From: Candidatus Palauibacter australiensis | GTDB taxonomy: Bacteria > Gemmatimonadota > Gemmatimonadetes > Palauibacterales > Palauibacteraceae | DNA length: 64,000 bases | Reading direction: 5' to 3' | NCBI GenBank assembly: GCA_026705295.1 | Contig: JAPPBA010000076.1 | Location: forward strand, 1 to 64,000 | In this document: in pieces, positions 27,171 to 29,501 of the stretch | Layout of the letters: every line of letters begins with the position of its first letter | Numbering within the stretch: the first letter of the stretch is position 1 | The notes under the pieces: generated by a model | What the model was told of the DNA's origin: nothing | What the model saw: the letters and a program-made list of their open reading frames with translations, nothing else | The model's database searches: none | Program-made: the position numbers and the translations under genes

Positions 27171-27408
27171 CCGACAACGGGAAATCGAGCGACTGCTCGA
27201 CCGCCTCTCCCGGGCGGCGGGCAGGATCCAGACCCCGCGGACGGAACCCGGGGTCGCGGGCCCGAGCGGACCGGCGACCCCCGACATGGAGGAGCGACTC
27301 AAGGCGGTGACGGCCGAGAACCGTCGCCTGCGCGAGATGCTGGCCGAGGCCAGGGCAAAGGCCGTGCGACTCCGCAACCGCCTCGCTCACGTGGAGGATG
27401 AGGTATGA
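27148..27408 (+). CDS. Small coiled-coil protein between pheT and zapA
   Basis: This 86-residue protein uses a GTG start inside the end of pheT. An N-terminal heptad segment (about 5-22), a Pro/Gly-rich middle and a C-terminal helix (about 47-86) with ENRRLREMLAEARAKAVRLRNRL form a likely coiled coil. The stop overlaps the zapA ATG by 4 bases, so the two are translated together. A cell-division role, for example a ZapB-like partner, is inferred only from this coupling and the helical nature. If the GTG is wrong, the ATG at 27286 would give 40 residues. Confidence 0.6.
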   Translation: MPESGNLDRQREIERLLDRLSRAAGRIQTPRTEPGVAGPSGPATPDMEERLKAVTAENRRLREMLAEARAKAVRLRNRLAHVEDEV

Positions 27409-27710
27409 CTTCAGCGGATGATTCGCCTCCGATCAGCGTAACGATCTTCGGCGACCGATACCGGATCCGGACGGACCGGGGTGAAGCGCACACCCGGGCG
27501 TGCGCGAAGTACGTGGACGACGCGATTCAGCGTGCGCACATGACGGGTGCGGCCGAACTCCACCGCGCCGCGATCCTCGCCGCGCTCGAGATCACCGATG
27601 AACTCCTGCAGGCCCGCCGCGACGTCGAGCAACTCACGGCCGCCGTCGAAGCGCGGGTCACGGAAGTGACCGAACGGCTCGAGTCCATCGCGGGCAACAC
27701 CGTGCCGTAG
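27405..27710 (+). CDS. zapA: Cell division protein ZapA
   Basis: This 101-residue protein has the ZapA pattern: an N-terminal beta part (PPISVTIFGDRYRIRTD), an alpha stretch with ACAKYVDDAIQRA, then AALEITDELLQARRDVEQL and a long C-terminal helix. ZapA cross-links FtsZ filaments at mid-cell. It is the last coding gene of the pheST transcript. Its TAG stop is part of a TAGCTT that may start a small RNA. ZapA followed by a structured RNA is a recurring arrangement in other phyla. Confidence 0.85.
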   Translation: MTSADDSPPISVTIFGDRYRIRTDRGEAHTRACAKYVDDAIQRAHMTGAAELHRAAILAALEITDELLQARRDVEQLTAAVEARVTEVTERLESIAGNTVP

Positions 27711-27719
27711 CTTGCGGCG

Positions 27720-27896
27720 TGCAGAGTCCCAAGCGACGTTTCCTGGCGTGAGTTAGAGGGAATCAGCAGCGGTGTGCTGTCCGTAAGGCGGCTTCGCACG
27801 AGCGTGGCCCCAGCTTCAGATAGATGATCGGTCGGAGCGCATCGTTCCGTCCGATCTGAGCGGCATGCACCGGTGGATGAGTCCGCCGGTTTTTTT
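27720..27896 (+). ncRNA. Probable structured small RNA between zapA and rny (6S-like by position)
   Basis: There is no plausible gene in this stretch. TAGCTT at 27708-27713, matching other -10 elements here, would start an RNA near 27720, and an intrinsic terminator ends it at 27896. That gives about 177 nt. An 11-base arm (27825-27835) can pair with 27845-27855 with one mismatch, and GTGTG at 27772-27776 can pair with CGCAC at 27795-27799. 6S RNA (ssrS) sits next to zapA in many bacteria and has about this length, but I do not see clear 6S sequence blocks. The 5' end is inferred and no good -35 is visible. Confidence 0.5.
27869..27896 (+). terminator. Intrinsic terminator upstream of rny
   Basis: ACCGGTGGA (27869-27877), loop TGAG, TCCGCCGGT (27882-27890), one G-U pair in the stem, then a seven-T run at 27890-27896. 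It ends the zapA-side transcript or small RNA, and it rules out a longer rny start at 27873. Confidence 0.82.
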
Positions 27897-27929
27897 GTTC
27901 ATAGATGGTTCGAGGATTGGAGTCTGGCC

Positions 27930-29501
27930 ATGCTGGAATCCATCACCGTGCCGACGATGCTGTTGGCCATCGCGGGTCTCGTGGCGGGGGGCCTGGCAGG
28001 GATTCTGATCGAGCGGCGGGGCCTGCGCCGGGCGCGTGGCCGCCTTGAGAGCGACGGGCGGGACATCGTCGAGTCCGCGAGGTTGGAGGCGGGCAGCCTC
28101 CGCAAGGCGGCGGAACTTGCGGGGCGCGAAGAGGCACAGCGGCTCCGGGAGGAATCGGCCAGAGAGGCCGAGCGCCGGCGCGCCGAGCTGGAGCGGCTGG
28201 AGCAGCGGACGCTGGAGCGGAGCGAGACGCTCGAGCGGAAACTTGAGAAGATCGACCAGCGGCAGGAGCGGGTGGATCGTCGCCGCGAGCAGATCGAGGC
28301 GGAGCGCGGCGAACTCGAAACGCGCGCGAAGGCACTCGTCGACCGCGAGCGGGAACTCGGCAGGCGGCTCGAGGAGATCGCGGGCATCAGCCGGGAAGCC
28401 GCGCGCCGTGAATTGGTGGGCCAGATTCGCGACCAGGCGCGGGCGGACGCCGCACAGCACGTGCGGGAGGTCACCGAGCGGGCCCGGGGCGAGGCCGAAC
28501 GGGAAGCCCGCAAGATCATCTCCCAGGCGATCGAGAAGCTCTCCGTCGATCATTCCTCCGAAGCGGCCGTCTCGGTCGTCACTCTCCCCAGCGATGACAT
28601 GAAGGGCCGAATCATTGGGCGCGAGGGCCGGAACATCCGGTCCTTCGAGGCGGCCACCGGCGTCGACGTGGTCGTGGACGATACGCCCGAGGCCGTCATC
28701 CTCTCCTGTTTCGATCCCGTCCGCCGCGAAGTCGCGCGGCTGGCGATGGATCACCTCGTCGGCGACGGCCGGATCCACCCCGGCCGCATCGAGGAGGTCG
28801 TGGAGAAGGCGCGGGACGACGTCCAGGCGACGATGCGGCAGGCGGCAGACGAGGTTCTGTACGAACTCGGCATCCACGACCTGCACCCGAAACTCCGCGA
28901 AGTGCTCGGCGTCCTCCGCTTCCGGACCAGCTACGGGCAGAACCAGTTGCAGCACGCGCACGAGGTCGCGCTCATCGGGGCGACGATGGCGGCGGAGCTG
29001 TCGCTCGATGCGCAGCTGGTGAAGCGCATGGGTCTGCTGCACGACATCGGCAAGGGGCTCACGCATGAGAAAGAGGGGAGCCACGTCGAGATCGGCTACG
29101 ACCTGTGCAAGCAGTGCGGGGAGAAGGACGGGGTGCTGAACGCGATCCGCGCGCACCACGGCGAGGAGCCCGCCCGTTATCCGGAGACCTTCCTCGTCAC
29201 GGCGGCGGACGCGATCTCGGGCGCCCGTCCCGGCGCCCGGCGGGAGTCTTTTGAGCACTACGTGAAGCGATTGGAGAAACTGGAAGAGATCGCGAGTTCC
29301 TGGGACGGGGTCGAGAAGGTCTACGCGATTCAGGCGGGGCGCGAGATCCGGATCATGGTGACCCCGGACAAGGTCTCCGACGAAGAGATGGCGAGGCTGT
29401 CGGAGCGGACGGCCCGCCGCATCGAGAACGAGTTGCAGTATCCGGGGCAGATCAAGGTCGTCGTCGTGCGCGAGTCGCGGACCGTGGACTTCGCACGCTA
29501 A
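27930..29501 (+). CDS. rny: Ribonuclease Y
   Basis: This 523-residue membrane-anchored endoribonuclease starts mRNA decay in many bacteria. One N-terminal TM helix (about 10-28) leads to a long, highly charged coiled coil (about 35-200), a KH domain with MKGRIIGREGRNIRSFE near 220, and an HD domain with HAHEVALIG, LHDIGKG and IRAHHGE. All HD metal ligands appear present. The start at 27930 is chosen because the longer frame begins inside the terminator. Downstream, short direct repeats separate it from folD. Confidence 0.96.
   Translation: MLESITVPTMLLAIAGLVAGGLAGILIERRGLRRARGRLESDGRDIVESARLEAGSLRKAAELAGREEAQRLREESAREAERRRAELERLEQRTLERSETLERKLEKIDQRQERVDRRREQIEAERGELETRAKALVDRERELGRRLEEIAGISREAARRELVGQIRDQARADAAQHVREVTERARGEAEREARKIISQAIEKLSVDHSSEAAVSVVTLPSDDMKGRIIGREGRNIRSFEAATGVDVVVDDTPEAVILSCFDPVRREVARLAMDHLVGDGRIHPGRIEEVVEKARDDVQATMRQAADEVLYELGIHDLHPKLREVLGVLRFRTSYGQNQLQHAHEVALIGATMAAELSLDAQLVKRMGLLHDIGKGLTHEKEGSHVEIGYDLCKQCGEKDGVLNAIRAHHGEEPARYPETFLVTAADAISGARPGARRESFEHYVKRLEKLEEIASSWDGVEKVYAIQAGREIRIMVTPDKVSDEEMARLSERTARRIENELQYPGQIKVVVVRESRTVDFAR

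Follow-up and report, generated by a model that had tools for sequence, protein, structure and literature searches.

The question raised by this locus is what is encoded in the 219-nt gap between zapA and rny (27711–27929, + strand) on contig C76 of an uncultured marine bacterium of the phylum Gemmatimonadota, whose genome is closest to Candidatus Palauibacter. Throughout, the window denotes the whole stretch of DNA that was analysed (64 kb). A first-pass annotation had described the gap as free of genes and had offered three readings of it: a divergent 6S RNA, another and so far undescribed RNA, or the leader of rny. The gap was confirmed to lack any gene-like open reading frame, and both neighbours were verified by Pfam: the upstream gene (27405–27710, + strand) encodes the cell division protein ZapA (PF05164, 62.6 bits), and the downstream gene (27930–29501, + strand), which is the presumed target of the element described here, encodes RNase Y (RNase_Y_N, 124.7 bits, together with KH_1 and HD domains). 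A probable Shine–Dalgarno sequence of rny, GGAG (27919–27922, + strand), was read off the sequence 7 nt 5' of the ATG at 27930. RNase Y initiates mRNA decay in many bacteria; knowledge of how the enzyme is controlled comes mainly from B. subtilis.

Promoter and Predicted Transcript

A TAGCTT sequence at the end of zapA had initially been taken as a −10-like element. This sequence is present (27708–27713, + strand), but a promoter matrix places the promoter instead at TTGCGG (−35; 27712–27717, + strand) and GACGTT (−10; 27735–27740, + strand), with a 17-nt spacer. This pair is the top-scoring site in the gap (9.6) and the third on the + strand of the whole window, according to a matrix that was built from families other than that of the window and that sees one promoter type only. 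The same placement recurs in relatives: TTGCGN-N17/18-TATNNT is found shortly 3' of the zapA stop across the class and in most families of the phylum, and the −10 at the equivalent place reads TACGTT or TAACTT in family f4 and CAACTT in other genera of the window's own family (f1). In most families, rny follows this promoter without an intervening T-run terminator.

Because the promoter lies at 27712–27740 instead of at TAGCTT, the transcript is predicted to start near 27747 and to be about 150 nt long, its exact start being extrapolated from the promoter; this shortens the length of about 177 nt proposed at first. The 5' end of the leader (27741–27767, + strand) is variable, with 43% mean pairwise identity and many indels among 13 congeners.

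Secondary Structure, Covariation, and Terminator

Of 200 shuffled versions of the predicted transcript, 199 fold less well than the transcript itself (z −2.66), whose fold consists of independent hairpins (P2, P3, and the terminator), with no rod enclosing a central bubble. P2 (27787–27811, + strand) comprises nine pairs, four of which show compensatory changes, with 98.3% of cells paired; P3 (27826–27856, + strand; −20.4 kcal/mol, fold z −4.9) comprises 14 pairs, nine of them with compensatory changes. The sequences of P2 and P3 vary freely, and invariance is limited to short segments. Two segments are conserved and unpaired, namely AGCUUCAGAUAGAUG and the joining segment UGAGCGGCAUGC (27857–27868, + strand), the latter being near invariant with the three divergent congeners included.

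For P2, P3, and the terminator taken together, 13 of 32 pairs carry compensatory changes (both sides) and 96% of cells pair (14 distinct sequences), in an alignment that was fitted to the structure and that owes its strongest changes to three divergent congeners; for these reasons, we regard the covariation support as good, not overwhelming. None of 500 shuffles reaches any of the covariation measures, and slid controls drop to 31–53% paired. Of the pairing arms that the first-pass annotation had noted, two internal hairpins and the terminator stand, and the closing arms do not: for the proposed P1 helix (GUGCUGU/GCGGCAU), covariation is no better than in shuffles.

The intrinsic terminator (27869–27896, + strand), recognised from the outset as a stem followed by seven T, has a 9-bp stem and a 4-nt loop (−15.4 kcal/mol, z −4.2; 98.1% identity), and its T-run ends 33 nt 5' of the rny ATG. 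Downstream of it, no promoter was recognised before rny by the matrix from other families (best score −0.3). The 5' arm of the terminator, GCACCGGTGG, is invariant in 15 of 15 sequences. This arm (window positions 27867–27876), which holds the palindrome CACCGGTG, occurs once in the 64 kb, and it stays unchanged in sequences whose 3' arm varies; a second constraint possibly acts on it. No antiterminator helix competing with the terminator was found in MFE and centroid folds or on inspection by eye; one candidate pairing with the terminator arms amounted to a 5-bp match only, and is lost in divergent members.

Conservation and Distribution

Among 13 congeners, mean pairwise identity is 93.9% in the core (27768–27895), 100% in the AUAGAUG linker, and 94.8% in the 33 nt between the T-run and the ATG, compared with 78% and 85% at the third codon positions of zapA and rny, respectively. 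Because these values exceed those of the flanking third codon positions, we infer that the interval is constrained as RNA or DNA, with sharp boundaries; the conservation of the 33 nt past the T-run indicates that the readthrough RNA appears to matter as well.

Alignment of the gap across relatives, as had been proposed in the first-pass annotation, established that the gap RNA is conserved and covaries among congeners. A covariance model (R2) gave one match each in 16 of 17 congeners, always in the zapA–rny gap and directly upstream of rny; among 43 genomes from the order, no further match had an E-value under 0.006. In one congener (G010, locus L077), zapA directly adjoins rny and there is no leader RNA, as expected of a cis element; the 6S RNA of this congener is intact.

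In other genera of family f1, the leader sequence is unalignable, and its layout recurs in most of the genera sampled: promoter, AUAGAU (some 80 nt downstream of the −35), a hairpin starting 0–3 nt further on, terminator, second AUAGAU, and rny. A structured leader with a terminator between the promoter and rny was found in the window's order (f1 and f2) and in some f7 genomes. The gaps of family f2 (L070, L072–L076) hold a distinct conserved leader, about 270 nt in length, with pairing of GCAGUUUUGCAUAG and GCAAAACUG and a terminator of its own before rny. The rny leader of family f4 (L116, L120, L121, L133, L134, and L139) contains a conserved block, GUAGGU..AAGC...GUAGUUAGC, and is without a terminator.

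The AUAGAU Element

One AUAGAUG element (27820–27826, + strand), invariant in the genus, lies directly 5' of P3, and a second (27901–27907, + strand) lies in the rny leader past the terminator, so that the two copies bracket the terminator; in the 64 kb of the window, ATAGATG occurs only at these two places (27820 and 27901). In 15 of 16 f1 leaders, a hairpin starts no more than 3 nt from the element; randomly chosen positions in these leaders gave an equally good result in 46 of 320 control trials, 20 of which derive from a single leader (L060) that lacks an element-adjoining hairpin. The combination of ATAGAT with T6 following at 45–75 nt was encountered once in 3.58 Mb. Near the rny start, ATAGAT is present at 15 of 18 f4 loci and 5 of 8 f3 loci (expected 0.1–0.2), and is almost absent elsewhere there. 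In both of these families, AUAGAU is positioned between the Shine–Dalgarno sequence and the initiation codon of rny far more often than expected by chance.

Two other roles for the element were considered and rejected. As the −10 of a downstream promoter, it has no accompanying −35, and in f3 and f4 it falls between the Shine–Dalgarno sequence and the AUG. As for a short leader open reading frame beginning at the first AUG (27824), the ATG is missing in many f1 leaders (which read AUAGAUC), and hence there is no conserved leader peptide.

RNase Y reportedly cleaves preferentially after a G within single-stranded, A/U-rich sequence, in some cases with structure just downstream, and one RNase Y site in S. 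aureus requires structure 6 nt downstream (PMC7101322). In B. subtilis, RNase Y regulates its own expression in part via cleavage in its 164-nt 5' UTR (PMC10303841). By analogy with this reported cut preference and this autoregulation, we suggest that AUAG↓AU could be an RNase Y site by which the leader would report the level of the enzyme.

A Candidate Attenuated Leader of rny and Its Alternatives

The gap appears to hold a real, conserved, structured, and previously undescribed RNA that looks transcribed; there is no Rfam match for it, and the strong conservation and covariation accord with the earlier reading of an undescribed RNA. We consider it probable, on the evidence of sequence, that the gap encodes an attenuated 5' leader of rny. 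Of the three readings offered initially, this is the best supported, on account of the phylum-wide placement of the promoter, the lack of a recognisable promoter past the terminator, the exclusive linkage to rny, and conservation up to the start codon. The anatomy is that of an attenuator: a promoter before, an intrinsic terminator within, and no further promoter of the matrix type ahead of rny. Because the terminator precedes rny, expression of rny would depend on transcripts that read through it, whether begun at this promoter or in the zapA operon, barring an unrecognised promoter.

Under the attenuated-leader reading, RNA polymerase would start at the promoter just 3' of zapA (27712–27740), and a leader of about 150 nt would be made, in which P2 and P3 form hairpins and AUAGAUG is exposed. 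Polymerase would usually be halted by the terminator, 33 nt upstream of the rny ATG, and readthrough would give rny expression; the leader would thereby set the amount of RNase Y. The input signal may be the level or activity of RNase Y itself, since AUAG↓AU with an adjoining hairpin is similar to published RNase Y sites, and the element recurs past the terminator. The leader is thus possibly an RNase Y feedback element. An extension of this idea, which we rate as improbable, is that the terminated leader acts as an RNase Y decoy, in which the AUAGAUG-hairpin mimics the AUAGAUG of the rny leader and the twin elements bracketing the terminator sense free enzyme, combining attenuator and sponge in one RNA.

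The main rival, which we hold to be rather unlikely, is that the gap encodes an independent small RNA, about 150 nt long, that acts in trans and adjoins rny through synteny only. It would account for a promoter and terminator of its own and for the strong conservation and covariation, and the unpaired AGCUUCAGAUAGAUG and UGAGCGGCAUGC could bind targets or proteins. A single-copy small RNA with fixed neighbours would give identical linkage to rny. Function could reside in the terminated RNA itself, and rny could be transcribed by leaky readthrough or from a promoter invisible to the matrix. Against this rival, in 43 genomes the RNA was found nowhere but next to rny, the leader past the terminator is conserved as strongly as the core, relatives use the same promoter for rny, and the RNA is absent from the congener in which zapA and rny abut.

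It is very unlikely that the gap holds merely the terminator of the upstream operon and the rny ribosome-binding site, conserved incidentally. Intergenic terminators are common, and one terminator-like match is expected by chance per 2 kb of such composition; however, a promoter, P2, P3, and AUAGAUG all lie upstream of this terminator, in sequence that is conserved above third codon positions and carries compensatory changes. A metabolite-sensing riboswitch controlling rny, for which a structured leader with a terminator would be the expected anatomy, is more doubtful still: there is no Rfam riboswitch match, the sequences of the two hairpins vary freely and the invariant segments are short, no switch helix was found, and RNase Y is, to our knowledge, not a usual riboswitch target.

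6S RNA in the Gemmatimonadota

Weak matches to the 6S family RF00013 at the zapA–rny junction, or after zapA, in relatives at first favoured a 6S reading of the gap. The zapA–rny gene order is kept phylum-wide across Gemmatimonadota, and linkage to zapA, which holds here, is consequently not diagnostic of 6S RNA. RF00013 itself gave no match in the window or the genome, either at the gathering threshold or at E ≤ 10, in agreement with the earlier remark that clear 6S sequence blocks are not seen in the gap. A phylum-specific model (R1), built from the weak RF00013 matches in Gemmatimonadota, detects one strong 6S RNA per genome in 240 of the phylum's 249 genomes, vs. a single one of the 249 in which RF00013 passes its own threshold; of the 40 genomes of the order that were searched, nearly all yielded one. 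This recovery is a by-product of the present analysis.

The genome's own 6S RNA is on another contig (G000:C109:3248-3395, corresponding to L158:1501-1648; 64.2 bits, E 1.4e-12), with the canonical blocks UUUCUUGAGCC, GACGUCAUGCCC, and GGGCUUCAAGAAA, a rod fold, and a terminator of its own; R1 has no match in the zapA–rny gap. In the phylum's other class, 6S RNA lies between zapA and rny (L020:1501-1680 and L022:1501-1667), in family f9 it lies just after zapA (L019:1501-1680), and in f4 it is elsewhere; it appears to have moved out of the zapA-linked slot. The classic zapA-linked slot does hold 6S RNA in some of the relatives just named, but the proposal that a divergent 6S RNA occupies it here is refuted by the canonical gene on the other contig, by the lack of a match of either model to the gap, and by a fold of separate hairpins in place of a rod. 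Rfam matches to v-snoRNA-1 (14.5 bits) and Cis90_sRNA (9.9 bits) in the window, far below thresholds, and to MIR1858 in L024 were attributed to chance or low complexity. A full-text search of open-licence PubMed Central returned no paper on 6S RNA in Gemmatimonadetes or Gemmatimonadota.

Comparison with Known Systems

The gap RNA shares with 6S (SsrS) RNA (RF00013) its adjacency to zapA, a similar length, and a promoter and terminator of its own, and differs in having no covariance match and no central-bubble rod, with the real 6S RNA encoded elsewhere in the genome. Terminator-type attenuators likewise have a promoter, a structured leader, and an intrinsic terminator just before the gene, with no other recognised promoter, although neither an antiterminator nor a leader peptide was identified in the rny leader here. 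The papers on RNase Y listed in a search of open-licence PubMed Central describe no rny attenuator. The rne 5' element (RF00040), the leader of RNase E, is similar in that it precedes the gene of a decay-initiating endonuclease whose level the leader is proposed to report; it belongs to a different enzyme and has a different structure, and the gap RNA has no Rfam match to RF00040. The rne 5' element works on mRNA stability, not via a terminator.

A further counterpart is the rny 5' UTR of B. subtilis, which resembles the present locus in having a leader (about 150–164 nt) ahead of rny and a housekeeping-type promoter (PMC10303841). In B. subtilis, RNase Y acts on its own leader, as is proposed for the present locus. 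AUAGAU at the rny start in several families offers a testable candidate for such a feedback site. Unlike the leader described here, that of B. subtilis has no reported intrinsic terminator, and it exerts control through cleavage and decay (PMC10303841). If the attenuated-leader reading is correct, a conserved, terminator-bearing rny leader in Gemmatimonadota would represent a second way of setting the level of RNase Y, through transcription elongation as opposed to mRNA decay.
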